A stretch of 64,000 nt of DNA from Akkermansia muciniphila (GTDB lineage Bacteria > Verrucomicrobiota > Verrucomicrobiia > Limisphaerales > BJHT01), in assembly GCA_945861535.1 (NCBI GenBank), contig CAMAUZ010000001.1:124001-188000 (forward strand), read 5' to 3'. The translations under genes were made by a program, and so were the position numbers. Shown here one piece after another: positions 23,963 through 43,700 of the stretch (its first letter is position 1; each line of letters opens with the position of its first letter). Under the pieces are notes generated by a model. That model saw only the letters and a program-made list of their open reading frames with translations, made no database searches and was not told where the DNA came from.

Positions 23963-25432
23963 ATGATTCGTGTTCCTGGTCAACCCGGCAGAGACCTCTG
24001 CGATACCCATCTCGGCGTCACCCGCCGCGACCTCATCCGTGTCGGCGGCTCCGCGCTGCTCGGCCTCACCCTCGGCTCCATGTTCGAGCTGAAAGCCCGC
24101 GCTGGCGTCTCGACCGCCAAAAAAGCCCCCGGCTGGGGCAAGGCCAAGAGTATTATCATGGTCTATCTCCAGGGTGGCCCGAGCCACATTGACCTGTGGG
24201 ATCCCAAGGAAAATGTCTCCGACAAATTCCGCAGCGTTTTCAAGAGCATCCCGACCAAGATTCCGGGGGTGAACTACACCGAAATCCTGCCGCAACTGGC
24301 CAAGGTGAACGACAAGTTCAACATGATCCGGTCGATGAGCTACACGCCCAACGGCCTGTTTAATCACACCGCCGCGATCTACCAGATCATGACCGGCTAC
24401 ACGACCGACAAGGTCAGCGCCTCCGGCCAGCTCGAACCGCCCAGCCCGAAAGACTTCCCGAACTTCGGTTCCAACATCATCCGCCTCAAGCCGCCCACCG
24501 AGCCGATGCTGCCGTTCGTCATGCTCCCGCGGCCGTTGCAGGAATCCAACGTCGTCGGCAAGGGCGGCACCGCTGGCTTCCTCGGCAAAGGTTTCGATCC
24601 CTACTATCTCTTCCCGGACGGTGACGACATGGACTTGACCAAGATGAACCGGATTAAGATCGACGATCTCAAGCTCCGGCCCGACGTCTTCTCGGTCCGT
24701 CTCCAACGCCGCGCCCGCCTCCGCGACGCCGTGCATGAAGCCATGCCGGAAATCGACAAGGCCGTGGAGCAATACAACCTCAACGAGTATTACGACCGCG
24801 CCCTGAACCTCATCGTCTCCGGCCGCGCGCGCGACGCCTTTGCCATCGAACGCGAAGACACCAAGCTGCGCGAGCGCTACGGCATGAACACCTTCGGCCA
24901 GAGCTGTCTTCTTGCCCGCCGCCTTGTCGAAGCCGGCACCCGCGTCGTCGAAGTCATCTGGCCCAAGGTCGCCAACTCGGACAACCACTCTTGGGATCAC
25001 CACGCCGGTCTGACCGACCGCATGAAGACCCGCTCCGGCCCCATGCTCGACCAGGGCCTCTCCGCGCTCTTCGAAGACCTCGATCAACGCGGACTCCTCG
25101 ACGAAACCCTCGTCGTCTGCCTCGGTGAATTCGGCCGCAGCCCCGAGAAAGGCGTCAGCACCTCCGGCAACGGCAACAGTGCCGACGGCCGCGATCACTG
25201 GCCGTATTGCTACACCGCCATCACCGCCGGTGCGGGCATCAAGCGCGGCAACGTCCACGGCAAGTCCGACAAGACCGGCTCCAGCCCGACCGAGGACCCC
25301 GTGCATCCCACCGAACTGCTCGCGACCATCTATCACGCGTTCGGCATCGACCCCGAAACCATCGTGTACAACCACCTCAACCAACCCCGCGAACTGGTGA
25401 AAGCCAAAGCCATCACCAAGCTTTTCGCTTGA
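23963..25432 (+). CDS. DUF1501 family protein (sulfatase-fold), Tat-exported
   Basis: A 489-residue protein 55 bases downstream of the DUF1549/1553 gene and surely in its operon. The N-terminus has [19 protein letters not shown], a twin-arginine signal. The body matches DUF1501, a family with an alkaline-phosphatase/sulfatase-like fold: [15 protein letters not shown] near 70, DNHSWDHH near 340 and GEFGRSP near 390. The pair DUF1549/1553 plus DUF1501 is a known fixed couple in Planctomycetes and Verrucomicrobiota; its substrate is unknown. A strong terminator follows. Confidence 0.9.
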
Positions 25433-26880: not shown

Positions 26881-27275
26881 TTCGATCTTTCTCTGGTTCG
26901 GTTTGGGCGGTGTGTCCGTTTGGCCGGACCGCAAATCTCCACGGCCGACATCCGCCAGCCGAACTGCCAGAGGATAGTTCACAGTGCGCCAGTTTTCAAA
27001 AACGGCGCAACTTTTTTCCTGCCTCGGGATTGCGCAAACGCCGGCACCTTCCCGAAAACACGGCCCTCGCCCGCCTCCGTCAGCGCCTCGCAGCGTGCCG
27101 ACGCGGGCCGGTCCCTTCGTGGTCTGGCTCGATCTGCCGTGGGGGCACCCCCGCAATCGGGGCCCCGTTTTCGCGGGAGCATTCTGCTAGTCCGCCCGTC
27201 TAACCCCTCCGTAACCAGCGAAATTGTCGCGACTTTGGTGTCCGTTGCCCTAGAACTTTTTCACACAACCAACCT
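26881..27275. other. Divergent intergenic region of 395 bases
   Basis: Separates the zinc-ribbon gene from the DUF4139 array and must hold both promoters. No confident -35/-10 pair or repeat family could be picked out. Confidence 0.45.
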
Positions 27276-28475
27276 ATGAAGGCTGCCATGAATCCTCGTC
27301 ACCTCCTCACCACCCTCGCCGTCCTCACCCTCGCCGCCGCGTCTGCGCAGGCGCGCGTCAAACTCGTCGCCCTGCCCGAGCGGGCGCGCGTCGTCGTCTC
27401 CCTCGCCCACCCCAACGCCACGCTGGTCGAGGAGGAGCGCATCCTCACCCTCCAGAAAGGCGTCAACCAGGTGGACTTCTCCTGGCGCGGCGTGAACATT
27501 GATCCCGCCTCGATCCAGGTCCGCATGTTGAGCCAGCCCGACAAGGTCATCATCCTCAACACCAGCTATCCCCCCAATGAAAACGCCCTCATCTGGGCCA
27601 TCAGCAGCCCCGACGCCAAGGAGGAGCGCATGCGCATTTCCTACCTGCTGCAGGGCCTCGGCCGCGATGTCGTCTATCGCGCCGTCGCCGAACCCGATGA
27701 AAAATCGCTGAACCTCCGCAACTACCTCCGCCTCCGCAACGACTCCGGCGAAGACCTCACCGAGGCCGAGGTTGGCATCGGTTACGGCGCCAATTTCAAG
27801 AAAAGCATCGCCGCCGGGGAAGTCCTCGAACTCCTCTCCGAACGCGTGGACGCCCTGCCCATCCGCAAAGTCCTCAATTGGGACGCTGCGAAACAGCCGT
27901 GGGACCCCGAGTACCAAAAGAGCACCATCGGCCTCCCGCTCACCTACATCATTAAGAACGACAAGGAATCCAAGCTCGGCACCCACACGCTCCTCCCCGG
28001 CAAGGTCCGCATCTTCATCAAAACCAAGGAACAGGCCGAAGCCCCCGGCGGCAAGGCCGGCGAAGGCGTCGCGTTCACCGGTGAAGACTGGGCCACGCTC
28101 ACCCCGGCCGACCGCGAGTTGAAGCTCTTCATCGGCGAAAGCCGCGAGGTCAAAGTCACCCAGCGCAAAATGAAGGACGAACGCACCGACATGCGCCGGA
28201 ACACCGGCAACCAGGTCGTCGTATGGAACACCGACGAGATTTACAAAATCGAGATCGAGAACTTCAAAAAAGTCCCCGCCGAACTCGTCATCACCGAGCA
28301 CATCCCCGGCTACTGGAAGATGGTCGAAAGCACCCACAAGTACGACCGCAAGGACGCCTTCACCATCGAGTACAAGTTGACTCTCCCCGCCGAGAGCACC
28401 GGCACGAAGAAGACCACCGTCAACTTCCAGCTCAACCGCATCAACGTTCAGGGCAACGAACCCACCAGCTACTAA
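27276..28475 (+). CDS. DUF4139-like secreted protein, divergent first member of the array
   Basis: A 399-residue protein with a signal peptide (about 1-26, ending AAASAQA). It keeps the plan of the five genes downstream: an N-terminal strand-rich region (ATLVEEERILTLQKGVNQVD, then FSWRGVNIDPASIQV), a central YLLQGLGRDVVYRA with NDSGEDL, and a C-terminal EIENFKKVPAELVI domain, which match the DUF4139/mucoidy-inhibitor-A-like pattern. It is much less similar to the others than they are to each other and lacks their hypervariable segment as such. ATG 27276 or the in-frame ATG 27291 could start it. Role unknown; probably periplasmic or surface. Confidence 0.75.
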   Translation: MKAAMNPRHLLTTLAVLTLAAASAQARVKLVALPERARVVVSLAHPNATLVEEERILTLQKGVNQVDFSWRGVNIDPASIQVRMLSQPDKVIILNTSYPPNENALIWAISSPDAKEERMRISYLLQGLGRDVVYRAVAEPDEKSLNLRNYLRLRNDSGEDLTEAEVGIGYGANFKKSIAAGEVLELLSERVDALPIRKVLNWDAAKQPWDPEYQKSTIGLPLTYIIKNDKESKLGTHTLLPGKVRIFIKTKEQAEAPGGKAGEGVAFTGEDWATLTPADRELKLFIGESREVKVTQRKMKDERTDMRRNTGNQVVVWNTDEIYKIEIENFKKVPAELVITEHIPGYWKMVESTHKYDRKDAFTIEYKLTLPAESTGTKKTTVNFQLNRINVQGNEPTSY

Positions 28476-28510
28476 GCGCCACCGCTTCCTAGCCGACCGG
28501 AGTTCCTCCT

Positions 28511-29845
28511 ATGAAAACCATCCGCCCACTGTCCCTCATTCTCGCCGGCCTCGTCCTCGGCGCTTCCCCGAGCCACGCCCGCATCAACGTCGTCTCCCTT
28601 CCCGGTCGCGACTCCGTCCAGCTCACCATCTATAACTCCGCCGACCTTACCTTGGTCAAAGAGACTCGCGCCCTCACCTTCCGCAAGGGCCTCAATAAAC
28701 TCGAATTCTCCTGGGCCAACACCCTCATCGACCCCACCTCCGTCGAGTTCCGCGCCCTCACCGCCGCCGACCAGGTCGAAGTCCTCGACGTCAGCTTCCC
28801 CCCCCGCGTCACCAACACCCTGGAGTGGCGCATCAACTCCGAGTTCGCCGGCGAAGTTACCGTCGAGATTCGCTACTTCACCAGCGGCATCAACTGGTCT
28901 GCCGATTATGTCGCCGAGGTCAACCAGACCGAGAAACTCATGCAACTCGCCGGTTACGTCCGCGTGAACAACAACTCCGGCGAAGACTACGAAAACGCCC
29001 AGGTCCGCCTCGTCGTCGGCACCATCCGCCTCGTCGAGGACATCGCCCAACTCGCCCGCCAGGGCCGCCCCGGCGGCCAGCCTGCGCCCACCGTCACCAG
29101 CGCCCCCGCCGCGCCAGCACCGGTCGTCATGTTCCGCCGCGAATCCGGCATGGCCCTCGCCAAAGCCACCGCCGCTTCCGAAAGCCGGCCTCGCGAGGTT
29201 GTGAAGGAAGGCCTCTCCGAATATTTCCTCTACACCGTCGAAGGCCGTGACACGATCCCCAACGGCTGGGCCAAACGCATGCCCTCCTTCCGCACCCCCG
29301 GCGTCACCATCGCCAGCTATTACAAATTCGAGACCGAGCAATGGGGAAACCAGGCCATGCGCTTCCTCCGCTTCAAAAACGACAAGGACAGCAAACTCGG
29401 CAACGAACCCCTCCCCGACGGCGCCGTACGCGTCTTCCGCGTCGCCACTGCCGATCAGCTCTACGCCTATGTCGGCGCGACCTCGGTGAAATACATCCCC
29501 ATCAACGAACAGGTCGAACTCGAACTGGGAGCCGACCAGGACGTACTCATCAAGCCCACTCTGATGAACTGGGAGAAAACCAACCTCGCCTTCGATCAAT
29601 CCGGCAACGTGAAAGGCTGGAACCTCAAGGAAACCTGGAAACTCGAACTCCAGAACTCCCGCGACATCGACGTCACCGTCGACATCCGCCGCAATTTTCA
29701 AGGCGACTGGACCCTCACCACCACCGTCGCCAACGAGAAAGTGGACGCCCGAAAAATCAAGTTCGTCGTCCCCCTCAAGTCCCGCGAAAAGCGCGACATC
29801 ACCTACGACGTCGTCACCCGCCACGGCAGCAACGCCACGCGCTGA
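28511..29845 (+). CDS. DUF4139-type secreted protein, array copy 1
   Basis: A 444-residue protein with a compact signal peptide (MKTIRPLSLILAGLVLGA, cut near 23), the only one of the five close copies without a repeat-derived leader, so it probably shows the ancestral start. Conserved N-half: RINVVSLPGRDSVQLTIYNS through GTIRLVEDIA. Variable segment about 29060-29193 (Pro/Ala-rich). Conserved C-half from LSEYFLYTVEGRDTIP to VTRHG(S/T)xATR. The motif pair YFTSGxxWSADYVAEV and NNSGEDYEN matches DUF4139. The 35-base gap from the previous gene indicates one operon. Confidence 0.82.
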   Translation: MKTIRPLSLILAGLVLGASPSHARINVVSLPGRDSVQLTIYNSADLTLVKETRALTFRKGLNKLEFSWANTLIDPTSVEFRALTAADQVEVLDVSFPPRVTNTLEWRINSEFAGEVTVEIRYFTSGINWSADYVAEVNQTEKLMQLAGYVRVNNNSGEDYENAQVRLVVGTIRLVEDIAQLARQGRPGGQPAPTVTSAPAAPAPVVMFRRESGMALAKATAASESRPREVVKEGLSEYFLYTVEGRDTIPNGWAKRMPSFRTPGVTIASYYKFETEQWGNQAMRFLRFKNDKDSKLGNEPLPDGAVRVFRVATADQLYAYVGATSVKYIPINEQVELELGADQDVLIKPTLMNWEKTNLAFDQSGNVKGWNLKETWKLELQNSRDIDVTVDIRRNFQGDWTLTTTVANEKVDARKIKFVVPLKSREKRDITYDVVTRHGSNATR

Positions 29846-29872
29846 GTTACAGCCAACTCCGCGCCCGCCGCT

Positions 29873-31330
29873 ATGAATCCCGCCACCACCGCGCCTGCCT
29901 CGGACCTCCCTCTCCCGTCAATGGGGAGAGGGAATGAGGGTGAGGGGTGCTTCCATCCAAGACACACCTACTCGACAACAACGCCCTCCCGCCATCTCCC
30001 CCTCCCTCTGTCCCTCTGTCTCTCCCTCCTCCTCCTCGCCGCCCCCGCCTCCGCCCGCATCAACGTCACCTCCCTCCCCGGGCGCGACTCCGTGCAACTC
30101 ACCATCTATAACTCTGCCGACCTCACCCTGGTCCGAGAAACCCGCCTGCTCACCTTTCGCAAAGGTCTCAACAAGCTCGAATTCTCCTGGGCCAACACCC
30201 TGATCGATCCCACCTCCGTCGAGTTCCGCGCCCTCACCCGCCCTGACGAAATCGACGTCCTCGACGTGAGCTTTCCCCCACGCGTCACCAACACCCTCGA
30301 GTGGCGCATCCAGAGCGAGTTCGCCGGCGAAGTCACCGTCGAGATTCGCTACTTCACCAGCGGCATCAGTTGGTCCGCCGACTATGTCGCCGAAGTCAAC
30401 CAACCCGAGAAACTCATGCAACTCGCGGGCAACGTCCGCGTGAACAACAACTCCGGCGAAGACTACGAAAACACCCAGGTCCGCCTCGTCGTCGGCACCA
30501 TCCGTCTCGTCGAAGACATCGCCACCCTCGCCACCCCCCGCGCCGATTCCGAGCGCGGACAAAGAGTTCCCCAACCAGTAATCCGCTCATTCTCCGTCAT
30601 GGAGAAGGCCAAGAAAGACATGAGCGATCTTTCCCTCGACGTTGAGCGCCTTGCCGACGCCAAAGGGGAGAAACAGAAAGCCATCGCCAAAGAGAGTCTC
30701 TCCGAATACTTCCTCTACACCGTCGAAGGCCGCGACACGATCCCCACCGGTTGGGGCAAACGCCTGCCCTCCTTCACCACTCCCGGCGTTCCCATTGTCT
30801 CCCTCTACAAATTCGAGCGCGAACGCTGGGGCCAGCAGGTCATGCGCTATCTCTCCTTCACCAACAGCGCCGCCGCCCAGCTTGGCAAAGAGCCGCTCCC
30901 CGACGGTCGCGTCCAGGCCTTCCGCGCCCGCACCCCCGACCGCCTCCTGGCCTATCTCGGCGCCACCGCCGTGAAATACATCCCCATCAACGAAAGCGTC
31001 GAACTCGAACTCGGCCCCGACCAGGAAGTCCTCGTCAAACCCACCCTGATGAACTGGGAGAAAACCAACCTCGCCTTCGACGCCAACGGCAATGTCAAAG
31101 GCTGGAACCTCAAGGAAACCTGGAAGCTCGAACTCCAAAACTCCCGCGACATCGACATCACCGTTGACCTCCGCCGCTCCTTCCGCGGCGACTGGACCCT
31201 CACCACCACCGCCCGTTACGAGAAAGTCGATGCGAACAAAGTGAAATTCCTCATCCCCTTGCAGCCCCGCGAAAAACGCGAACTCACCTACGACCTCGTC
31301 ACCCGCCTCGGTAGCAACGCAACGCGCTGA
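29873..31330 (+). CDS. DUF4139-type secreted protein, array copy 2
   Basis: A 485-residue frame from ATG 29873, 28 bases after copy 1. The hydrophobic signal core (LPLPLSLCLSLLLLAAPASA) starts only near residue 42; the leader before it includes a family B repeat read as LPLPSMGRGNEGEG. The ATG inside this repeat is a second possible start. The halves match copy 1. The variable segment (about 30530-30680) is charged and lysine-rich, with EKAKKDMSDLSLDVERLADA. C-half phrases (ERERWG, VMRYLSFTNS) pair it with copy 4. Confidence 0.8.
   Translation: MNPATTAPASDLPLPSMGRGNEGEGCFHPRHTYSTTTPSRHLPLPLSLCLSLLLLAAPASARINVTSLPGRDSVQLTIYNSADLTLVRETRLLTFRKGLNKLEFSWANTLIDPTSVEFRALTRPDEIDVLDVSFPPRVTNTLEWRIQSEFAGEVTVEIRYFTSGISWSADYVAEVNQPEKLMQLAGNVRVNNNSGEDYENTQVRLVVGTIRLVEDIATLATPRADSERGQRVPQPVIRSFSVMEKAKKDMSDLSLDVERLADAKGEKQKAIAKESLSEYFLYTVEGRDTIPTGWGKRLPSFTTPGVPIVSLYKFERERWGQQVMRYLSFTNSAAAQLGKEPLPDGRVQAFRARTPDRLLAYLGATAVKYIPINESVELELGPDQEVLVKPTLMNWEKTNLAFDANGNVKGWNLKETWKLELQNSRDIDITVDLRRSFRGDWTLTTTARYEKVDANKVKFLIPLQPREKRELTYDLVTRLGSNATR
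29905..29949. repeat. Family B palindromic repeat in the copy 2 leader
   Basis: CTCCCTCTCCCGTCAATGGG then GAGAGGGAATGAGGGTGAGG forms a hairpin plus tail. Same-orientation copies are at 31475-31522 and 33281-33326, each at the same place in its gene. Confidence 0.85.
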
Positions 31331-31357
31331 TCCGCCGCAACCTCCCCACCCGCCGCC

Positions 31358-32902
31358 ATGAATCCCGTCGCTCGCTTCCTATCCAGCCCCGTCCGCCGGC
31401 GCGCGAGCGTCTTGGACTGCGGTGGTCCTCCGCCGCTCTCCGCGGGTGTGATTGCAAGAAACGCGCCCGCATCCGGCCTCCCTCTCCCCTCAATGGGGAG
31501 AGGGAATGAGGGTGAGGGGTGGTCCAACCCACGACGTCCATTCTCGCCGTCCCTCTGTCTTCTCTTCCTCCTCGCCCTTACTTCCCTCGTCCACGCCCGC
31601 ATCAACGTCACCTCCTTCCCCGGACGCGACTCCGTCCAGCTCACCATCTACAACTCCGCCGACCTCACCCTCGTCAAAGAAACCCGCCTCCTCACCTTCC
31701 GCAAAGGGCTCAACAAGCTCGAATTCTCCTGGGCCAACACCCTCATCGACCCCACCTCCGTCGAGTTCCGCGCCCTCACCCGCCCCGATGAAATAGAGAT
31801 TCTCGATGTGAGCTTCCCCCCGCGCGTGACCAACACCCTCGAGTGGCGCATCCAGAGTGAGTTCGCCGGCGAAGTCACCGTAGAAATTCGCTACTTCACC
31901 AGCGGCATCAGTTGGTCGGCTGACTATGTCGCCGAGGTCAACCAGCCCGAAAAACTAATGCAGTTGGCAGGCAACGTCCGCGTGACCAATAAGTCCGGCG
32001 AAGACTACGAAAACACCTCCATCCGCCTCGTCGTCGGGACCATCCGCCTCGTCGAAAACATCGCCGACCTTGCCCGCCGCGGTGAGGAAGGCCGTGACAA
32101 AGATGGCGAAAAACTCAGTCGGCTCCGGGACGAATCGAAAAAGATGGATGGGATGAAACGGCTCGAACCCGCCGATTCGCTTGCCTTCGGCAACGCCGCC
32201 CGCAAACGCAGTGGTGTCGCCAATGGTCTGGAGCTTGAGGACCGCCGGCGCGAAATCACCAAGGAAGCCCTCTCCGAATATTTCCTCTACAGCGTCGAAG
32301 GTCGCGACACCATCCCCACCGGCTGGTCCAAGCGCCTTCCCTCCTTCAGCACCCCCGCTGTTCCCCTTGTGTCACTCTACAAATTCGAGGCCGAGCAATG
32401 GGGCGCAACCGTCCAGCGCTTCTACGCCTTCACCAACAACACCGCCAGCAAGCTCGGCAAAGAGCCGCTGCCCGACGGTGCCGTCCGCGCCTTCCGCACC
32501 ATCACCGACGACCGCCTCCTCGCCTATGTCGGCGCGACCGCCGTGAAATATATCCCCATCAACGAGCGCGTGGAAATGGGCCTCGGCCCCGATTCCGAAA
32601 TCCTCGTCAAACCCACGCTCATGAATTGGGAGAAGACCAATCTGGATTTCGACGCCAACGGCAACGTGAAGGGTTGGGACCTCAAACAGATTTGGAAACT
32701 CGAACTCCAAAACTCCCGCGACATCGACATCGCCCTCGACATCCGCCGCAACTTCTCCGGCGATTGGACCCTCACGACTCCCGATACCTATGAGAAGGTG
32801 GATGCCAACAAGGTGAAATTCCTAGTCCCCCTAAAGCCCCGCGAGAAACGCGAACTCAACTACGAGCTGCTCACCCGCCTCGGCACCAACGCCACTCGCT
32901 AA
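31358..32902 (+). CDS. DUF4139-type secreted protein, array copy 3
   Basis: A 514-residue frame from ATG 31358. A long leader, part of it a family B repeat, precedes the signal core SPSLCLLFLLALTSLVHA (about residues 64-81). The conserved halves match the other copies; NKSGEDYEN and the C-half EAEQWGA, RFYAFTNNTASKLGKEPLPD pair it with copy 5. The variable segment (about 32080-32258) is highly charged, with EEGRDKDGEKLSRLRDESKK. No ATG, GTG or TTG close to the signal core other than the one in the repeat was found, so the leader start must be upstream of or within the repeat. Confidence 0.8.
   Translation: MNPVARFLSSPVRRRASVLDCGGPPPLSAGVIARNAPASGLPLPSMGRGNEGEGWSNPRRPFSPSLCLLFLLALTSLVHARINVTSFPGRDSVQLTIYNSADLTLVKETRLLTFRKGLNKLEFSWANTLIDPTSVEFRALTRPDEIEILDVSFPPRVTNTLEWRIQSEFAGEVTVEIRYFTSGISWSADYVAEVNQPEKLMQLAGNVRVTNKSGEDYENTSIRLVVGTIRLVENIADLARRGEEGRDKDGEKLSRLRDESKKMDGMKRLEPADSLAFGNAARKRSGVANGLELEDRRREITKEALSEYFLYSVEGRDTIPTGWSKRLPSFSTPAVPLVSLYKFEAEQWGATVQRFYAFTNNTASKLGKEPLPDGAVRAFRTITDDRLLAYVGATAVKYIPINERVEMGLGPDSEILVKPTLMNWEKTNLDFDANGNVKGWDLKQIWKLELQNSRDIDIALDIRRNFSGDWTLTTPDTYEKVDANKVKFLVPLKPREKRELNYELLTRLGTNATR
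31475..31522. repeat. Family B palindromic repeat in the copy 3 leader
   Basis: Reads CTCCCTCTCCCCTCAATGGG and continues GAGAGGGAATGAGGGTGAGG. It is translated in the same frame as in copies 2 and 4. Confidence 0.85.
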
Positions 32903-32918
32903 ACACTCCCCCGCGTCA

Positions 32919-34688
32919 ATGAACACTACCGTCTCTGCCCCTGCCCGTAGCCGCCGACGTGAGGAGGCGGATCGGCTGTCGTGCGGACACTCACCCTCGC
33001 TCCCTGAACCCGCTATCAATCGTTGCGAAAGTTCGTCCCGGGACCGGGGCAACAAGCAGCGCGTCCTTCTCCCTCGCCCCGTGAGGCACGAACGGGGAGA
33101 GGGCAGGGGAGAGGGGTGCTTCACCATTACGAACGGCCCAACCTTGCGGAGCGCCTCCTCTCCACAACCCGCTCCTCCATTCCGAATGGAGGAGAGGGAG
33201 CCGGAGGCACCGGCGCGGACAGCACGCATTTTCGCAAGAACTGATGCGGGTGCGATTGCGAGAAACGCCCCCGCATCCGGCCTCCCTCTCCCCTCAACGG
33301 GGAGAGGGAATGAGGGTGAGGGGTGGTTTAACCCACGACGCCCATTCTCGCCGTCCCTCTGTCTCCTACTCCTCCTCGCCCTTACTTCCATCGCACACGC
33401 CCGCATCAATGTCACCTCCCTCCCCGGCCGCGAATCTGTCCAACTCACCATCTACAACTCCGCCGACCTCACCCTGGTCAAAGAGACCCGCCTCCTCACC
33501 TTCCGCAAAGGCCTGAACAAACTCGAATTCTCCTGGGCCAACACTCTCATCGACCCCACCTCTGTCGAGTTCCGCGCCCTCACCGCCGCCGATCAAGTCG
33601 AAGTCCTCGATGTGAGTTTCCCGCCGCGAGTCACCAACACCCTCGAGTGGCGTATTCAGAGCGAGTTTGCCGGCGAAGTCACCGTAGAAATTCGCTACTT
33701 CACCAGCGGCATAAGCTGGTCGGCTGACTATGTCGCTGAAGTCAATCAACCCGAGAAACTCATGCAGCTCGCGGGCAATGTCCGCGTGACCAATAACTCC
33801 GGCGAAGACTACGAAAACACCTCCGTCCGCCTCGTCGTCGGCACCATCCGTCTCGTCGAGAACATCGCCGACCTCGCCCGCCGCTGGCAGGAGCGTGCGG
33901 AGGCAGAGGGTCAGAAGGCCTCCAGTCCAAACCGAAATCTTGTGCGGGCCGTACTTGAACTCAGTGACAGCCTGGCGGAAGAAGCCGCACCTTCCGCCAA
34001 GGATGGCCGGTTGGGGGCGAGACAGGAGCGCCTCAAAGCCGTCGCCAAGGAAGCCCTCTCTGAATATTTCCTCTACACCGTCGAGGGCCGCGACACGATC
34101 CCCACCGGCTGGTCCAAGCGGCTTCCCTCCTTTACTGCGCCCGGCGTGCCGATCACGGCGCTCTACAAATTCGAGCGCGAGCGCTGGGGCGCCCAAGTCA
34201 TGCGCTACCTCTCCTTCACCAACAGTCCCGACGCCAAGCTCGGCAAGGAACCGCTCCCCGACGGCCGCGTCCAAGCCTTCCGCCTCGACACCCCCGACCG
34301 CCTGCTGAGCTACCTCGGCGCGACCGCCGTGAAATACATCCCCATCAACGAAAGCGTCGAACTGGAACTCGGCGCCGACCAGAACGTGTTGGTGAAACCC
34401 ACGCTGATGAACTGGGAGAAGACCAACCTTGCCTTCGACGACAACGGGAATGTCAAAGGCTGGAACATCAAGGAAACTTGGAAGCTGGAACTTCAGAACT
34501 CCCGCGACATCGCCGTCACCGTGGACCTTCGCCGCAACTTTCGCGGGGACTGGACCCTCACGACTACCGATACCTACGAGAAGGTGGACGCCAACAAAGT
34601 GAAGTTCCTGATCCTCCTGAAGCCCCGCGAGAAACGCGAACTCACCTACGAGTTGCTGACCCGCCTCGGCACCAACGCCACCCGCTGA
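32919..34688 (+). CDS. DUF4139-type secreted protein, array copy 4 (longest leader)
   Basis: A 589-residue frame from ATG 32919, 17 bases after copy 3. About 145 residues of leader precede the signal core (SPSLCLLLLLALTSIAHA). That leader is almost all repeat: family A at 32947, the composite element 33018-33244 and family B at 33281. The N-half phrase TAADQVEVLDVSF is shared with copy 1, but the C-half (ERERWG, VMRYLSFTNS, RVQAFR) is shared with copy 2. The variable segment spans about 33880-34037. Whether the whole leader is translated is unclear; a start inside it is likely. Confidence 0.75.
   Translation: MNTTVSAPARSRRREEADRLSCGHSPSLPEPAINRCESSSRDRGNKQRVLLPRPVRHERGEGRGEGCFTITNGPTLRSASSPQPAPPFRMEEREPEAPARTARIFARTDAGAIARNAPASGLPLPSTGRGNEGEGWFNPRRPFSPSLCLLLLLALTSIAHARINVTSLPGRESVQLTIYNSADLTLVKETRLLTFRKGLNKLEFSWANTLIDPTSVEFRALTAADQVEVLDVSFPPRVTNTLEWRIQSEFAGEVTVEIRYFTSGISWSADYVAEVNQPEKLMQLAGNVRVTNNSGEDYENTSVRLVVGTIRLVENIADLARRWQERAEAEGQKASSPNRNLVRAVLELSDSLAEEAAPSAKDGRLGARQERLKAVAKEALSEYFLYTVEGRDTIPTGWSKRLPSFTAPGVPITALYKFERERWGAQVMRYLSFTNSPDAKLGKEPLPDGRVQAFRLDTPDRLLSYLGATAVKYIPINESVELELGADQNVLVKPTLMNWEKTNLAFDDNGNVKGWNIKETWKLELQNSRDIAVTVDLRRNFRGDWTLTTTDTYEKVDANKVKFLILLKPREKRELTYELLTRLGTNATR
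32947..32971. repeat. Family A repeat in the copy 4 leader
   Basis: Full GTAGCCGCCGACGTGAGGAG core, 28 bases after the putative ATG of copy 4. Confidence 0.8.
33018..33244. repeat. Composite palindromic element (copy 2)
   Basis: Same module order and orientation as 9955-10190: ATCAATCGTTGCGAAAGTTC, CGCCCCGTGAGGCACGAACG, GAGAGGGCAGGGGAGAGGGG, CTCCATTCCGAATGGAGGAG, ending near ACTGATG. It sits inside the open leader of copy 4. Confidence 0.8.
33281..33326. repeat. Family B palindromic repeat in the copy 4 leader
   Basis: As in copies 2 and 3, but CAACGG replaces CAATGG with compensation kept in the stem, so the internal ATG is lost. Confidence 0.85.
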
Positions 34689-34704
34689 TTACCCACCCGC
34701 GTCA

Positions 34705-36213
34705 ATGAACCCCACCGACGCCCTACACCCACCCACGCTCCCGGAAGCCGATATGGCAGACGAATGGGGGCAGACGAATACTGCGTCTCCATTCGTCTGC
34801 CCCCATTCGTCTGCCAATCCCGCCCCCACACCCTCACACTCTCACACTCTCACGCGCCGTCTCTCCCTCCCTCGGTCTCTCTGTCTCTCCTTCCTCCTCG
34901 CCCTCACTCTCGCCGCCCCCAGCCACGCCCGTATCAACGTCACCTCCCTCCCCGGCCGCGACTCGGTCCAACTCACGATCTATAACTCGGCCGACCTCAC
35001 ACTTGTCAAAGAAACCCGTCTTCTCACCTTCCGCAAAGGCCTGAACAAACTCGAATTCTCCTGGGCCAACACCCTCATCGACCCCACCTCCGTCGAGTTC
35101 CGCGCCCTCACCCGCCCGGATGAAATAGAGATTCTCGATGTGAGCTTCCCACCGCGCGTGACCAACACTCTCGAGTGGCGGATCCAGAGTGAGTTCGCCG
35201 GCGAAGTAACCGTCGAGATTCGCTACTTCACCAGTGGCATCCGTTGGTCCGCCGACTATGTCGCCGAAGTCAACCAACCCGAGAAACTCATGCAGCTCGC
35301 CGGCAACGTCCGTGTGACCAATAAGTCCGGCGAAGACTACGAAAACACCGCCGTCCGCCTCGTCGTCGGCACCATCCGCCTGGTCGAGGACATCGCCGGT
35401 TTAGCCCGGCGCGGGCAGGAACTGGACAAGGAACTGGCTAGCTCGCTGCGGAACCGGGGCAACCTCGGCCTCGTTACCAGCGATTTCGCCACTACTTCCG
35501 GCACCGTTTGGTTCGGCGGAATTGCCGGCGGCGGCGCCGGTGGCAAAGAACAAAAGCTGCGCGAGGTCGTAAAAGAGAGCCTCTCCGAATATTTCCTCTA
35601 CAGCGTCGAAGGCCGCGACACGATCCCTACCGGCTGGTCCAAGCGTCTCCCTTCCTTCAACACTCCCGCGGTCCCGCTTGTGTCACTCTACAAATTCGAG
35701 GCCGAGCAATGGGGTGCGAACGTCGTGCGCTTCTACGCCTTCACCAACAACACCGCCAGCAAGCTGGGCAAGGAGCCGCTCCCCGACGGTGCCGTCCGCG
35801 CCTTCCGCACTGTCACCGAGGACCGCCTGCTTGCCTACGTCGGCGCGACCACCGTGAAATACATTCCCATCAACGAGCGCGTCGAGATGGACCTCGGCCC
35901 TGACGCCGGCGTCTTGGTGACACCCACGCTGATGAACTGGGAGAAAACCAACCTTGCCTTCGACGCTGCTGGCAACCTCACCGGTTGGACCACCAAAGCC
36001 ACCTGGGAGATCGAGCTTCAGAACTCCCGCGACATCGACATTCGCCTCGATATCCGCCGCAACTTCTCCGGCGACTGGTCGTTGGATACCCAGACACCCT
36101 TTGAAAAGATGGACGCCAACAAAGTGAAGTTCCTCCTCCCGCTCCAGCCCCGTGAGAAACAGAAACTCACCTACACCCTCACCACCCGCCACGGCACGAG
36201 TGCCACGCGGTGA
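34705..36213 (+). CDS. DUF4139-type secreted protein, array copy 5
   Basis: A 502-residue frame from ATG 34705. The leader carries a family K inverted repeat (34755-34815), read as DEWGQTNTASPFVCPHSS, before the signal core SLPRSLCLSFLLALTLAAPSHA. The halves match the other copies, closest to copy 3 (RPDEIEILDVSF; RFYAFTNNTASKLGKEPLPD). The variable segment (about 35408-35567) is glycine-rich, with SGTVWFGGIAGGGAGG, unlike the charged ones of copies 2-4. The C-terminal domain is the most diverged (TGWTTKATWEIELQNSRDID). Confidence 0.8.
   Translation: MNPTDALHPPTLPEADMADEWGQTNTASPFVCPHSSANPAPTPSHSHTLTRRLSLPRSLCLSFLLALTLAAPSHARINVTSLPGRDSVQLTIYNSADLTLVKETRLLTFRKGLNKLEFSWANTLIDPTSVEFRALTRPDEIEILDVSFPPRVTNTLEWRIQSEFAGEVTVEIRYFTSGIRWSADYVAEVNQPEKLMQLAGNVRVTNKSGEDYENTAVRLVVGTIRLVEDIAGLARRGQELDKELASSLRNRGNLGLVTSDFATTSGTVWFGGIAGGGAGGKEQKLREVVKESLSEYFLYSVEGRDTIPTGWSKRLPSFNTPAVPLVSLYKFEAEQWGANVVRFYAFTNNTASKLGKEPLPDGAVRAFRTVTEDRLLAYVGATTVKYIPINERVEMDLGPDAGVLVTPTLMNWEKTNLAFDAAGNLTGWTTKATWEIELQNSRDIDIRLDIRRNFSGDWSLDTQTPFEKMDANKVKFLLPLQPREKQKLTYTLTTRHGTSATR
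34755..34815. repeat. Family K inverted repeat in the copy 5 leader
   Basis: GGCAGACGAATG is doubled with a GGGG joint, then its exact inverse doubled copy follows after 11 bases. Arms of 25 bases are perfectly complementary. The core word (GACGAA) differs from that at 4058-4136 (GAAAAA). Confidence 0.88.
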
Positions 36214-36240
36214 TTGCGTGAACACTCCCCGCCCGCCTGC

Positions 36241-37065
36241 ATGATCTTTCCCACCGTAGCCCGTAGCCGCCGACGTGAGGAGGCGGATCGGTTGCCATGC
36301 GGACGCGTCCGCCTCCTCACGTCGGCGGCTACGCCGCGCGAGGTACCGCAGGTGTCCTCGCCTGCGAGTTCGCGGGGCGTCTCGCCCCGAGTTGGTACTG
36401 GCGGCGAGACGCCGCCCGAACTCGCAGGCGAGGACGCCTGCGGTACCAAAAGCCCGCCTTTCCCGCGTATCGAGGCTCTTTCTTTTTCCCTTTGTCTCCC
36501 CGTCCTCCTCCTCGTCCTGCTCACCGCCTGCTCCCCATCCAAATTCCCCGAGCCGCCCAAGCCCGCCGCACCCGCTCCCGCCGCCACCAACGCTCCCCCC
36601 GCCGCCCAAGCCCTCTTCGACCGCACCGTCAAAGAGTTCCACCTCCCCTCCGCCGAAGCCTCGGGCGCGCGCCGTAAGGAGCTTCTCGCGCAGGCCGCCG
36701 CCGGCTACGAGCAACTCCTCCGCGAACACCCCACCCACACCAAACTCTGCGCCCAGGCCCTCCGCAGCCTCGCCAACATCCGCGCCACCGAAGGCCGCCT
36801 CGACGACGCCATCTCCCTCCACGCCAGCGTGGCGCAGCGCTATCCGTCCGAGGAATGGGAAGTCCTCCAATCCTGGAAATCCGCCGCCGACCTCCTCGCC
36901 GACGCCCAGCGCACCGCCGAAGCCGCGCCGTTCTACCGCCAGATCATCGAGCGCTTCGACCGCACCAACGCCGCGCCGGTCGTGCAGATTATCGTCCGCT
37001 CCGCGCGCAAGCGTCTCGCCACCCCGCGTCGCCGCCCGCGCCGGTTTTGGGCCGCCGGAATGTGA
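36241..37065 (+). CDS. TPR-like lipoprotein with a repeat-encoded leader
   Basis: A frame of 274 residues from ATG 36241. The hydrophobic core SFSLCLPVLLLVLLTACSPS has a good lipobox (LTAC, C96), so the mature part is a lipoprotein of about 180 residues with tetratricopeptide-like helices (ELLAQAAAGYEQLLREHPTH; AICLHAS-like repeats). Residues about 7-70 are read entirely from family A and family E palindromes. I find no ATG, GTG or TTG between these repeats and the lipoprotein signal, so translation must cross them or the gene is damaged. It is 27 bases after copy 5 and likely in the same operon, possibly as an assembly or anchoring partner. Confidence 0.72.
   Translation: MIFPTVARSRRREEADRLPCGRVRLLTSAATPREVPQVSSPASSRGVSPRVGTGGETPPELAGEDACGTKSPPFPRIEALSFSLCLPVLLLVLLTACSPSKFPEPPKPAAPAPAATNAPPAAQALFDRTVKEFHLPSAEASGARRKELLAQAAAGYEQLLREHPTHTKLCAQALRSLANIRATEGRLDDAISLHASVAQRYPSEEWEVLQSWKSAADLLADAQRTAEAAPFYRQIIERFDRTNAAPVVQIIVRSARKRLATPRRRPRRFWAAGM
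36263..36332. repeat. Family A inverted pair (hairpin)
   Basis: Two full family A cores face each other (36263-36287 and 36308-36332) with a 20-base centre, giving a perfect 25-bp stem. It lies in frame in the lipoprotein leader. Confidence 0.9.
36343..36447. repeat. Stacked palindromic repeat, family E (copy 2)
   Basis: Outer GGTACCGCAGG and CCTGCGGTACC pair; inner hairpins GCGGGGCGTCTCGCCCCG and GGCGGCGAGACGCCGCC. Same orientation and plan as 1988-2094. Confidence 0.85.
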
Positions 37066-37090
37066 CCACAGAGACACGATGAACTCAGAG
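37065..37090. repeat. Family H repeat, single arm
   Basis: ACCACAGAGACACGATGAAC, as in both arms at 7387-7513; it overlaps the lipoprotein stop codon. Confidence 0.75.
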
Positions 37091-37210
37091 AACTGCCCCG
37101 AAGAGAACTCGGTACTACAACTCTTCAAAATCCCCGCGGGCCGCGAGGATTTTGCCGTTGCTCTGGTCGCCACCAGACCACCAGAGAATGGTCGCCGCCG
37201 CCTGGCTCTT

Positions 37211-37531
37211 CGTCCCGGAGGGACACCGCAGGAAATTAGCCGGGGGCAAGCCCGCGCCAGAGGGCGCGGCCCCCGGTTGCCACGCCGAACGGGCCATGCC
37301 CCAGCGGGGCATCGGAGAAGTTTTTGGCGTCACCCGCCCCGCAGCATCGCCGCCACCACCGTCGCCTCGGGCAAACCGGGCCGCGAGCGCTCGTCCAGCA
37401 ATCCCGGGCCATTTCTTCGATGCCCCGCTGGGGCACGGAGTAACTCAGCACTGTTTCCGGGGGCGGCGTCCGCGGGCGCGGACTTGCCCCCGGCTAATCT
37501 CCTCCGGCGTCCCTCCGGGACGGGAAACCGG
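37211..37531. repeat. Long nested inverted repeat, family I
   Basis: Outer arms CGTCCCGGAGGGAC with AATTAGCCGGGGGCAAG (37211-37250) return inverted at 37481-37531. An inner pair, CCCCAGCGGGGCATCGGAGA near 37300 and its inverse near 37410-37432, is nested between them. It fills most of the 672-base gap between the lipoprotein and the giant gene. No gene is seen there. Confidence 0.8.
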
Positions 37532-37737
37532 GCGGCCCGGAAAGTTCCGTGGGAGGCGGCGTTGCCAGCATGCTGCGGCTGGTGCTCGGCGCCTACAGCC
37601 GCGCTCTGGAGCAGCGCGCCGGCCCGCACCATCTCGTTCAACCGCTAAAGAATTAACCTGATTCCCTCGTGCCCCACATCCTGCCACCTTCGCCACCGTT
37701 CATCGCCAATCCGGTTTTTCACCAACGCCCACTGCCT

Positions 37738-40700
37738 ATGAAATCTTCCACCGCCGCGCACTCCGTCGCTCTCGCGCCCAGTTTCACGTCCGCGCGTTCC
37801 GCCACTGCCCCGCTACCGCTCCGGCTCGCTCGCGCCGCGAGCTTCATGGTAGGGCGCGTCTGTCCTCAGCGCGCCGCTTGCGCATCCACACGGTCGGCGG
37901 CGCGCTGGGGACAGACGCGCCCTACCAGCGCCTGCCGGTTCTCGGATTTCCTGCGAAATAATTGGCTTCTGGGAATTCTCGCGCTGCTCCTCCTCACCAC
38001 CACCGCCTCCGCCCAGGTCCTCCTCAACGTCGATTTCGGCGTCGGCACCACGAGCGCGAAGACCGGTTTCGCGGCCACGGGGCAGGGGACCAACGACCAT
38101 TGGAATCTCTACCGCCATTACTCGCCGAAATATCTCCCCGGCATGGCCCTCGTCGCCGACGGACTGCTCGAAAATCTGAAACTCGCCGACGCCTCCGCCT
38201 CGAAGGTCAGCCTCGCCGTCTCGAACGCCCCCGGCGTCTGGGGCAACGCCACCGGCGACCCGATGTACGACGGCTACATCTTCCCGCTCAACGGCAGCAA
38301 CATGACGGTCACCGTCCGCAATCTCGACCCGGGCAACTACCACTTCTTCCTCTACGGCCACGCTGACGCCGACGTCACTGGCGAACAAAACAGCGTCTTC
38401 ACCCTCACCAGCGGCGCCCTCAGCTCCGGCACCAACACCTTCGGCCCGCTCACCGCGCTCGGCTCCGCGGGATGGAAAGCCACCGCGCCCTGGCAGGAAC
38501 GCCAGCAATACGTCGTCTTCCGCGATGTCACCGTGTTCGCCGGCAAGCCCGTCCGCATCGACGTCGCGCCCGGCCCGAATGGCGTCGCCGTGTTGAACGG
38601 CCTGCAAATCTTCTCGCGCGGCACCAGTCCGCCGAAACTCGCCGTCCCGCTCGCGACGAAGGCCTCGACCGTCTCGACCAACCTCTTTTTCCACCAACTC
38701 CGCTATGACGGGAAAATCAGCGACACCGAGGCGCGCTTCAGCGTTTTCCTCCAGGCTGAATCCATGACCACCAACGTCATCTCCGCGCCCCTCTTCACCG
38801 GCGACGTCGCCGTGCTTGCGCCCGCCCTGCCCGAGGGCGTGCGCATCGTGAATGCCGCGCGCCAGTTCCGCCTCGTCGCCACGCAGCCCGGCATCTACGA
38901 CCTCGAGTTCGAGATCATCGCCAAGATCACGCGGCAGGAACCGTGGAACCACATCTCCTTCACCGGCCCCGCCGCCGCGCTCGCCGAGGTCACCGCCAAG
39001 TCCACCGTGCCCGGCGTCGAGCTCCAGTTGCTCTCCGGCACGCCCGCGCTCGAGGAACCCGGCAAAACCAACGCCCGCGCCCCCGGCATCATCAGCGGCT
39101 TCCTCGGCGCGGACCGCACGCTCGCCCTGCGCTGGCAGGGCAAAACCGTCGAGGTCGCCCGCAAATCCCTCGTCACCGTCGATACCGTCGCCCGCGCGCA
39201 CCTCACGCCCACCGTCATCAAATACACCACCGACCTCACCTACGATGTCGTGCAGGGCAGCGTCCCGCGCCTCGTTATCACGCTCCCGGCCAACCAGACC
39301 ATCACGCAAATCTCCGGCGGCACGCAGGTCCGCGACTGGCAGGTGAAACCCGACGGCGCGCGCCAGACGCTCACCATCGAGTTCATCAAGCCGCTCGAAA
39401 AATCCGCCGTGATCAAAATCTTCTCCGAGCAACCCCTCGACGCCGCCACCGCCGCGCTGCTCCCGCCCGAGCCGACCGGCGTGGACCGCGAGTCCGGCTC
39501 CTTCACCGTGTCCGCCGAGGAACTGCTCGTCGAGGTCGATACCGCCACCGGCCTGCGCCAGGTCAACGCCACCGGCGGCGCGCTCGCGGCGTATCGTTTC
39601 TACGGCCGCCCTTTCGCGCTCTCGGTCAAGGTCAAGCGCCTCGAACCCATCGTCAACGTCAATGACCGCGTCACCGTGCGCCTCGAGGAGACGCGCCTGC
39701 TCGTCACCCACACGCTCAGCCTCAACGTCGAGCGCGCCGGAATTTACGGCCTCGATCTCGTCACGCAGACGAACTTCACCGTCGCCGACGTGCGCGGCGA
39801 GGGCGTCGATGACTGGAAAATCACCGACGGCAAACTGCGCGTGAATTTCAAAAACCAGGTCCTCGGCGCGCGCCGTCTCGAGGTGCAGCTCGAACAGCCG
39901 CACAAACAATTCCCCGCGCAACTCGACCTCGCGCCGTTGCGCGTCACCGGCGCGACCAAGGAAACCGGCCGCATCGGTGCGGCCGCCGCGCAGGGCATCC
40001 GCCTCAAGACCGTCACCCTCGCCGGCCTGCGCGAAGTCCCCGTGAACCTCATCGGCCCCGTCGGCGACGAAATCCTCGGCTACCTCCTCGATCAGCCCGA
40101 CTGGAAGCTCTCGCTCGCCCCCGAGCGCCTGCCCGCGCGCGTCCTCGCCGAGGTCTTCAACCTGATCACCATCGGCGACGGCCAGATCGGCGGCAGCGCG
40201 ACGATCCGCTACGGCATCCTCAACCAGGGCGTGCAGCAGTTCCGCGTGAAACTCCCGGCGCACTGGAAAAACGTCGAGTTCACCGGCCCCAACATTCGCC
40301 GCAAGGAATCCGCGACGAATATCTGGACCATCAGCCTCCAGGACAAGGTCTGGGGCGGCTACACGCTCGTCGTCACCTACGATCACCAGTTCAATCCCAG
40401 CCGCGCGACGCTCGACGCCGCGGGCGCGCACGTCCTCGATGTCGAGCGCGAGACCGGCTCCGTCGCCATCACCACCGCCGCCAGCCTCAAGCTCGAGCCG
40501 CAGCCCGTCGCCGAGCCGCTGCGCAAGATCGACCCCACCGAGCTGGCTGACACCGACCGCGCGCTCATCACGCGCCCCGTGCTGCTGGCCTACCGCTACA
40601 CCGGCGGCGACTTCGCGCTCGGCCTCGAACTCACGCGCCACGAACAGGCGCAGGTGCTCTCCGCCGTCACCGACCGCACGCAGATCACCAGCGTCCTCAC

Positions 40701-43700
40701 CGAGGCGGGCGAGATGCTCACGCAGGCCTCGTTCATGGTGAAAAACAACGACAAGCAGTTTCAAAAATTCCAGCTCCCCGGCGGCGCGGCGCTCTGGGGC
40801 GTCTATGTGAACGGCGAACCGGTCAAGGCCGAGCGCGACGCCGAGTCGCTCCTCGTCTCGCTCCCGCGCACCGCCAACCGCGACCAGGCCTTCGCCGTGG
40901 ACATCGTCTATGCGCAGACCTTCGCCTCGCTGAAAAAGCTCCTGCCCAGCCGTCTCCACCTCGAAGCCCCGCGCACCGACGTGCCCAACACCTACGCCGA
41001 ATGGACCCTCTACGCGCCCTTCACCCAGCGCCTCTCGGGCTTCGATGGCAGCATGACGGCGGCGCGCGGGACGACGTATGGGTGGCGTGATGCGTGGGGG
41101 CAGTTCGTCGAGCTTTACAGCAACCTGTGGGATCAGGGATTTGGTTTCGTCGTCGGCCTGCTGGTGTTCGGTGTGGTCGTTTGGGTTCTTGTTTCCGCGG
41201 CGCGAAAGCGTGGCGCGGCGGGCCTGTTGACCGCCTTGGTGCTCTTCGCATTCGCCGGCATTCTCGCTTCGATGCTGCTCCCCGCGCTCGGCAAGGCGAA
41301 GGCCAAGGCGTCGAGAATAAAGACGGTCAATAACCTGAAGCAGGTCGCGATGGCGGCGCGGGTGTTTCATTCCGAACACGGCCGCTTCCCGCTGAGTTTC
41401 GAGGAGATGATGAGCGAACTTGGCTCGGACAAAGTCCTCTACGATGCCGAGACTGGTGAGCGTTTGATCTATGTCGGCGCGGGCAAAACCGAGGGTGACG
41501 CCAGTGCCTTGCTGGCCTACGCAGTGCGACCCGGCGGGAGAAACGACGCCGCATTTGCCGACGGCTCGGTTCAGCAACTGACCGCGCAGAGCTTCGAGCA
41601 GGCGATCCAGCGAGACTTGCAGCGCTCGATGAACCCGATGGCTGTCGGCGGCGATCGTTCCGGGGCCGTGGACATGCCATCCACTGGCCTTCCGGTTGGA
41701 GGGTCAACACGACAGCCAATGCCGGCCGGCAAACCGATGTCCGGCCCCGTGGCCACGCCACCCCGGCCGACCATGCCGATGTCGCCGCCGCCCGCGGAGC
41801 CCGCAACCCGGCAGCGCGTATTGGCGGAGGCCCGCAAAGAGATGGCGGCGCGGGATGGCGAGCTAAAGGAGCAATTGGCGAACCCAAGTCGTCCCGGTGT
41901 CAGTGCTGCCGCCAAACGGGCGCAGGAGGCGCTCAACGAACCGGCGGTGAGGAATCAAACGGTAACCATCATCGACAATACCATGGTGACAGATTCCGAC
42001 GCGGGCGCCCTGAATTTCCAAAAAGGAACGAGCGCAGGCACATTCGGTTTTGTCACGGGTTTGGGCGCAAATGGCGCGGTTGCTCGCTCTGGCGAGGCAG
42101 CGGGAACTCCGACTGTGAATTTCTTCACCGCCAACAGCACGAGCGTCTCCGGCGCCGCCTACGCCCCCACCGCCACCGGCATCCGCTCCATCCGCATCGA
42201 CATCCCGAAGACCGGGCAGAGCTTCAACTTCACGAAAGTCCTGAACGTCGGCCGCGAGCCGCTCTCCGTGCAGGCCACCGCGATGCGCACGAAAGTTTTC
42301 TCCATCGTGCAAATGATCCTCCAGCTCGCCGCGTTCCTCATCGGCCTCGGCGTTTGCTGGCATCAATGGAACAAGCCCGACCGCAGCAGCCTCGCCCTCA
42401 CCGTCGGCGCGGTGCTCGCGCTCGGCGCGGTCATCAACCTATTCCTCGCGCTCCGCATGTTGCACGTCGTGCTCGTGCTCGTGACCGGCGTGCTCGCACT
42501 CGTGCTGCTCGTCGCCCTTTTCCGCCGCCTGCTCCCGCGCCGCAAGCCCGCCGCGCCCGCCGACAACGCCCCGTCCTCACCCGGCGACTCCGAACCGCCC
42601 GCCCCTTCCGCTCCCGCGCCGTCGCCGTCATCGTCCTCGCCCGCCGCGCCCACGCCCGCCGTCACCGCGCTGCTGTTGCTCCTCTCGCTCGCGTCTGCGT
42701 CCGCGCAGCCGCTCGACTCCGCCGCCGCGCGCGTCAGCTACGTTCCCGCCGGAGCCGTGCCTTCCGCCACGATTGTCTCCGCGAAATACGTCGGCCGCGT
42801 CGGCGAGAAGGTCGCGCAGTTCAACGCCACGTTGCAGATTCTCAGCGTCGCCACCAACCAGACCGTGCGCCTCTTCGGCGATGACGTCGCGGTGCAGTCC
42901 TTCGTGGCCGACGGCAGCGCCAAGCTCGTCCGCGACGGCGACACCGTCAGCGTGTGGCTGCCCGAGAAGGGCGAGTTCACCTGCGAACTGAAACTGCTCG
43001 TGCGCCTCGGCGGCGACGTGACGCGCCGCCTGCTCGCCTTCGGCAGCCCGAGCGCGCTGGCCAGCACCTTCACCGCGGACCTCGATGAACCCGACGCGGA
43101 TGTCGAATTCCCGAGCGCGGTGTCCTTCAAGCGCGTCACGCAGGGCAAGCAGACGCACGTCGAGGCCGTGCTCGGCGCGACCGATCGCGTCGAGCTGCAA
43201 TGGACGCCGCGCGTGAAACGCGTCGCGGACATGGAGGCGACGATCTTCTGCGTGAACAGCTCGCTCATCACGATTGGCGGCGGCGTGGTCCACACGCGCA
43301 CGATTTTGAATTACCAGATCAGCCAGGGCGAACTGCGCCAGGCCAAGGTGCGCCTGCCCGCCGGCCAGCGCCTGCTGCGTGTCGCCGGCGACGGCATCCG
43401 CACGTGGGAACTCATCTCGGAAGGCGCGAACGAAGTCGTCGTCGTGGATCTGCTCAAGGGCGTCGCGCCCGAGTGGAAGGTGACGGTCGAGACCGAGAAG
43501 CCGCTGCCCGCGCTGCCCGCGGCGCTCAAGCTCGAAGTCCCGCACGCCGGCGACGTGAAGCGCGAGAACGGCCTCGTAGCCGTGCGCGGGAGCGAGGAAC
43601 TGAGCGTGTTCGTGGATGGCGCGCCGGGCTTGCAGCGCGTGGACAATGGGGAGTTCAGCCGCGGCGCTTCACCACCCGTCGGCGAACTGGTGAGCGCGTA

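Follow-up and report, generated by a model that had tools for sequence, protein, structure and literature searches.

Five open reading frames lie in tandem on the + strand at positions 28511-36213 of the window, the whole 64,000-nucleotide stretch of DNA that was analysed. They encode DUF4139 proteins with near-identical N- and C-terminal halves and dissimilar centres, here called cassettes. Judged by their signal sequences, the copies are probably secreted. Genes of the type of u, which precedes them, adjoin cassette-bearing copies at most other loci. An extra cassette-bearing copy, unlinked to the array, is found on a different contig of the same genome. The cut-off of the DUF4139 family (PF13598), 31.8 bits, is passed by copies 1, 2, 4 and 5; copy 3 and u (30.2 bits) fall just under it, and copy 3 reaches 33.1 bits when scored with its neighbours in frame. 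The features of the locus are collected in Table 1.

Table 1. Genes and parts of the array and its surroundings (window coordinates; bit scores are against DUF4139).
Feature	Position	Strand	Description
DUF1501 gene	23963-25432		Neighbour of the array
u	27276..28475	+	Divergent DUF4139 paralogue without cassette; first gene of the array; 31% identity to copy 1
Copy 1 (W1)	28511..29845	+	Probably secreted DUF4139 protein, 43.9 bits; signal sequence 28511-28576
Cassette of copy 1	29048..29212	+	55 aa, Pro/Ala-rich, begins QLARQGRPGGQP
Leader of copy 2	29846-30052		Repeat elements, open in the gene's frame
Copy 2 (W2)	29873..31330	+	41.2 bits; mature part from 30053
Cassette of copy 2	30524..30697	+	58 aa, charged
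Leader of copy 3	31331-31594		Repeat elements, open in the gene's frame
Copy 3 (W3)	31358..32902	+	31.4 bits (cut-off 31.8); mature part from 31595
Cassette of copy 3	32066..32269	+	68 aa, charged
Leader of copy 4	32903-33398		Repeat elements, open in the gene's frame
Copy 4 (W4)	32919..34688	+	40.7 bits; mature part from 33399
Cassette of copy 4	33870..34055	+	62 aa, charged
Leader of copy 5	34689-34926		Repeat elements, open in the gene's frame
Copy 5 (W5)	34705..36213	+	35.4 bits; mature part from 34927
Cassette of copy 5	35398..35580	+	61 aa, Gly-rich
TPR protein	36214-37065		Neighbour of the array
2771-aa open frame	37669-45984		Downstream of the array

The mature N-halves (157 codons, ARINV...LVE[DN]IA) are 89-97% identical among the five copies and the C-halves (210 codons, from LSEYFLY...) 66-88%, in agreement with a preliminary description of five tandem genes with near-constant halves. 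The cassettes of the paralogues share 22-45% identity in a gap-rich alignment, and the core of the copy 1 cassette matches those of copies 2-5 no better than shuffled sequence (z of 1.4 or less). The same description had placed 45-60 unrelated residues between the halves; unrelated they are, while three of the five cassettes are longer than that range. The compositions it reported are as given in Table 1. The borders fall at the same place in all five copies, as it had also stated, with the exact edges moved a few residues inward: the constant part extends about 3 residues further on the left (xLA) and 3-5 on the right (xKE). The TPR, 2771-aa and DUF1501 neighbours gave no clue to the function of the array. 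No Pfam family scored above cut-off in the 2771-aa frame, and an Rfam search of positions 27000-38000 detected no RNA.

Structural searches were carried out with AlphaFold models of copy 1 (window 28577-29842, model ma97941702a14) and copy 3 (31595-32899, model m7996da7ed32d). In both, pLDDT is about 35-60 across the cassette and mostly above 80 in the flanks. The copy 1 model has a low-confidence insert at residues ~151-213; in that of copy 3 the cassette is a low-confidence helix followed by disorder. The cassette is thus predicted to be mostly disordered, between ordered beta-structure, and to form an exposed loop, a point that the preliminary description had proposed to check by modelling. 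The N-domain aligns with the N-domains of M1 peptidases at Z ~6. Since the strand that follows the insert lies inside the M1-alignable range (model residues 2-234), the insert looks like a loop inside an N-terminal beta-domain. In Foldseek searches with both models, all seven matches with E <1e-3 were oligosaccharyltransferase chains, which we take to be Ost1/ribophorin I, followed by M1 aminopeptidase N-domains. The Ost1 matches (E ~4e-7) have TM-scores <0.2 over the whole chain and are absent from the list of the second aligner; with scores this low, the likeness is only a lead for domain-by-domain comparison. For Ribophorin I/Ost1 and the M1 N-domains alike (TM <0.2, Z <8) the likeness is structural, short of established shared ancestry. 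A sequence search of the PDB returned no relative.

The search for relatives covered 58 genomes of the order as well as GTDB species. Going by record titles, those gathered belong to Verrucomicrobiota, Planctomycetota, Lentisphaerae, Kiritimatiellales and some other bins, and are mostly PVC bacteria. All 104 aligned relatives carry an insert of 45-79 aa at the same point. Column entropy is ~3.5 bits in the insert and ~0.3-2 over nearly all remaining columns; the length is conserved and almost no residues are. At loci showing a single cassette-bearing copy the insert is equally variable. In 16 canonical DUF4139 (MuiA-type) proteins of the phylum, a gap-filled Pro/Ala/Met-rich stretch occupies the corresponding place, so that the array copies share with these 16 members a domain interrupted at a single position by a variable insert. 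These results show that the cassette is the usual variable insertion of the DUF4139 family, and its supposed novelty is not supported. The array is an operon-like tandem set of probably secreted MuiA-like DUF4139 envelope proteins that occurs across PVC bacteria. With MuiA it shares the Pfam domain, the low-complexity insert site that splits this domain, and export. It differs in lying far below the cut-off of the MuiA family (TIGR02231; scores of 36.6, 32.7 and 20.4 bits, none reaching 112.6) and in that several copies stand in tandem beside a cassette-less sister gene.

A stretch of the type KVPLLGDIPxxGxLF was seen in the cassettes of five planctomycete copies (L078:4789-6681, L082:584-2542, L103:6535-7962, L129:1152-3497 and L131:7953-9335). 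In the four pieces tested it resembles part of the secretin domain PF00263, below cut-off (E 7.7e-4 to 0.16), which may reflect convergence, a docking mimic or chance.

The cassettes were compared with those of one congener, represented by a fragmented MAG (LBMAG_Verrucomicrobia_hypo.bin2), dN/dS being the pairwise average over this single species pair. Counterparts were found for copies 1, 2, 3 and 5 and for the unlinked copy; neither of two short congener fragments could be identified as the missing copy 4. Cassette identity and dN/dS are 75% and 0.42 for copy 1, 70% and 0.19 for copy 2, 84% and 0.20 for copy 3, 68% (gapped) and 0.21 for copy 5, and 74% and 0.34 for the unlinked copy. With dN/dS of 0.02-0.14 in the flanks, the cassettes evolve several times faster, yet under purifying selection, and between the two species each stays with its own copy. 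None of the five orthologous pairs shows positive selection (dN/dS <0.5 in all).

A cassette search of the whole genome of the window (96.6% complete) returned only the five copies and a weak match at E=0.028. A translated search of the same genome found no template repeat of a diversity-generating retroelement matching the cassettes. The idea of a mobile or template-copied element was rejected, as the genome holds no other copies. An assembly artefact in the window was likewise rejected: the window lies in a 225-kb contig, and the congener cassettes agree.

The preliminary description had read the array as a diversified surface protein family in which a hypervariable cassette is swapped or evolves fast between constant flanks. 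Tandem paralogues with a variable module between constant flanks are indeed present; fast or positive evolution is not supported, orthologous cassettes being 68-84% identical at dN/dS 0.19-0.42, and no reservoir of cassettes was found elsewhere in the genome. The outcome that the description itself had named as counting against it, cassettes that correspond between relatives under purifying selection, was largely seen, in one congener rather than among strains. As to swapping, the cassettes keep to their copies in the congener, with a single mosaic as exception. The 496-nt leader of the congener third copy, on contig BJHT01000368, matches the copy 4 leader at 88% over its full length and can be aligned to the copy 3 leader only over the last 153 nt, whereas the cassette and C-half of this gene match copy 3. 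Either recombination inside the shared N-half or a mis-joined MAG contig would produce such a gene. Exchange between copies is therefore at least occasional, unless the contig is an assembly chimera; as exact repeats shared by the copies reach 72 bases at most, a mis-join is possible but not favoured. The hypervariable, swapped surface cassette is mostly not supported. Homogenisation of the flanks around a loop under weak constraint accounts for the sharp borders better than exchange of the loop would.

To what extent the flanks have been homogenised was judged from silent sites and trees. N-half dS is 0.37-0.55 among the array paralogues and 0.37-0.52 between array orthologues, rising to 1.1-1.9 in comparisons with the unlinked copy. 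For the cassettes, the poor alignment makes dS between paralogues unreliable. A nearly star-like tree was obtained for the N-half; C-half trees separate the copies better. At multi-copy loci of Verrucomicrobiota, tandem copies come out in flank trees as closest to others of their own genome or genus. Planctomycetota and allies are mixed, with flanks that group by genome at some loci and position-specific clades at others. The cassette of copy 1 resembles first-copy cassettes of four other genera (z 8.3, 7.3, 5.6 and 5.1). No such likeness between genera is seen for second-copy cassettes (z ~0.5), so second copies may stem from a recent lineage-specific duplication. A linked block, RPEI versus AAQV, is common to copies 2, 3 and 5, and in copies 2 and 3 it differs from the congener counterparts, as conversion would give. 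GENECONV-like permutation tests on window and congener copies gave suggestive tracts, none significant (best Bonferroni value 0.15), and the best silent-site tract in the window array and congener (0.21) did not survive correction. A clear conversion tract is carried by a planctomycete pair, p1/p2 of locus L084. Silent differences between these two copies number 16/198 in the C-half and 49/144 in the N-half (p=1.8e-9); the C-halves show none over ~100 codons, and in comparison with the orthologous C-half the count is 51/193. With paralogue N-half dS equal to orthologue dS and the copy 1 cassette resembling first copies elsewhere, the flanks seem homogenised while the cassettes keep their identity. 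On the evidence of dS, trees, cassettes and L084 together, homogenisation of the flanks with spared cassettes is taken as most likely.

Gene order was compared at 79 loci. Two sets are usual: a cassette-less gene followed by cassette genes, and, in Planctomycetota and allies, a cassette gene, a cassette-less gene and further cassette genes. The window holds the longest run of cassette genes after a cassette-less gene among these loci, several of which are truncated at the end of a contig. In the second set the first cassette gene usually has ~165-320 extra N-terminal residues. An HxxxCxxC-like motif is present in 22 of 25 such long first copies and a hydrophobic segment before the DUF4139 domain in 24; zf-HC2 scores above cut-off in two. 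An ECF sigma gene lies directly upstream of 21 of the 25 (with Pfam confirmation in three loci). Judged from these motifs, such a first gene is arranged like that of an anti-sigma factor, with a DUF4139 paralogue as its putative outer domain. The likeness to known pairs of ECF sigma and zinc-finger anti-sigma factors lies in the zinc-binding-like motif, the hydrophobic segment, the outer domain and the place beside an ECF gene, all in Planctomycetota and allies. The differences are that the outer domain of the PVC copies is a cassette-bearing DUF4139 domain followed by secreted paralogues, and that the window array is without an anti-sigma-like first gene. In one locus (L105:2506-7368) the first copy shares a single open frame of 1620 aa with two kinds of domain upstream of it, FAD oxidoreductase and F5/8 type C; this would be either a fusion or a frame artefact.

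The ECF sigma factor SbrI drives transcription of muiA in Pseudomonas aeruginosa (PMC10418997), in parallel to the sigma factor beside the PVC operons, and MuiA is linked to swarming and biofilm formation (PMC7603352). By analogy, the family may act in envelope sensing or maintenance. No ECF sigma gene of the relatives' type was found in the window, and its array has no long first gene, so that a signalling role would extend to the window array by analogy with other phyla only. Cassette composition varies with the place in the operon. Among Planctomycetota and allies, more Pro, Ala and Met occur in the first cassette that follows the cassette-less gene than in the cassette preceding that gene (Pro p=8.8e-8). 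First cassettes of Verrucomicrobiota likewise contain more Pro+Ala+Met than later ones (p=0.00023); the loci share ancestry and are not independent, so both p-values overstate.

Taken as a whole, concerted evolution of the flanks around copy-bound cassettes of a family-wide type, in envelope proteins of PVC bacteria, is the best explanation, and we consider it probable. The near-identical halves would allow ectopic gene conversion or unequal crossing-over to homogenise the flanks, those of the window array included. The cassettes, already too diverged to pair, would be skipped, and sharp borders would result. The main rival, which we hold to be fairly unlikely, is lineage-specific duplication without conversion: copies 2-5 would have arisen shortly before the species split, with a burst of cassette change after duplication, the cassette of copy 1 being the ancestral one. 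It would account for flanks that group by genome, for the lack of a significant conversion tract in the window array, and for the fact that only the copy 1 cassette is recognisable in other genera, the later ones being charged and without cross-genus similarity. However, as N-half dS is equal for paralogues and orthologues, it needs near-instant divergence of the cassettes, then a slowdown to only 16-32% change since. The N- and C-halves also give different ages, and conversion is demonstrated in a relative (L084). Antigenic or phage-driven diversification of an exposed module, with diversifying selection and exchange between copies, appears very improbable. A variable loop flanked by constant parts, the signal sequences and the congener gene that joins a copy 4 leader to a copy 3 cassette and C-half speak in its favour. 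It is opposed by dN/dS <0.5 in every orthologous cassette and by cassettes that keep to their own copy; the genome search found no silent cassettes elsewhere, and the insert is equally variable at loci showing one cassette-bearing copy.

Concerted evolution of the flanks leaves the function of the cassettes to be weighed separately. They may be plain linkers without a copy-specific role that drift within limits of length and disorder, a serious possibility that falls somewhat short of an even chance; it concerns function only and is compatible with the evolutionary account preferred here. The low-confidence loop in the models, the kept length with almost no kept residues and dN/dS of up to 0.42 are in its favour, while copy 1 cassettes still recognisable between genera, the dependence of composition on operon position (the Pro result above, with shared ancestry in the data) and the secretin-like motif in one group of planctomycete cassettes argue against it. 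Tentatively, the copies could instead be extracytoplasmic subunits of like fold in a system for envelope sensing or maintenance, with loops that tell the subunits apart. The link to signalling is drawn because the operon of the relatives opens with genes for an ECF sigma factor and for an anti-sigma factor bearing a paralogous outer domain. A more specific version, a mixed envelope-sensing assembly in which the loop is a subunit address or ligand reader, conversion keeps the scaffold interchangeable and one subunit is the anti-sigma factor in many PVC bacteria, would be a speculative and rather unlikely extension.

The mosaic outer membrane proteins FhuA, LamB and OmpC of E. coli (PMC12175518) also combine a conserved scaffold, highly variable loops and local recombination. 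In those proteins, recombination between strains affects the variable regions, which can be under positive selection; here, recombination seems to act on the constant parts, between paralogues, and the variable part keeps its place under purifying selection. Our literature search returned nothing close on the DUF4139 family of this kind or on concerted evolution that spares a disordered segment in bacteria. What looked like a hypervariable cassette is a likely case of concerted evolution that spares one segment, a conversion tract being directly seen in a relative. It serves as a warning that constant flanks around a variable centre need not mean antigenic variation. A functional lead for the PVC proteins comes from the conserved operon, which pairs an ECF sigma factor with a DUF4139-bearing anti-sigma factor. 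As a member of its family the cassette is ordinary; what merits further attention is the homogenisation around a spared segment, together with the sigma/anti-sigma context.

The start codons of copies 2-5 are uncertain, as a repeat-bearing leader of 60-160 residues, signal sequence included, precedes each mature part. The leaders are open from an ATGAA start, 16-27 nt past the preceding stop, through the signal sequence. That of copy 4 is a repeat-rich open stretch of 480 nt with 0 in-frame stops (7 and 2 in the other frames). It has no indel relative to its congener counterpart, and its dN/dS is 0.58 (control frames ~0.8). Repeats may have entered a translated N-terminus without disturbing its frame. 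Five occurrences of a 42-bp repeat (CTCCCTCTCCCCTCAATGGGGAGAGGGAATGAGGGTGAGGGG), with <=3 mismatches, were located in the genome (G000:C1:155478, 153906, 157282 and 31195; C150:4006), and three of these occurrences precede copies 2, 3 and 4.
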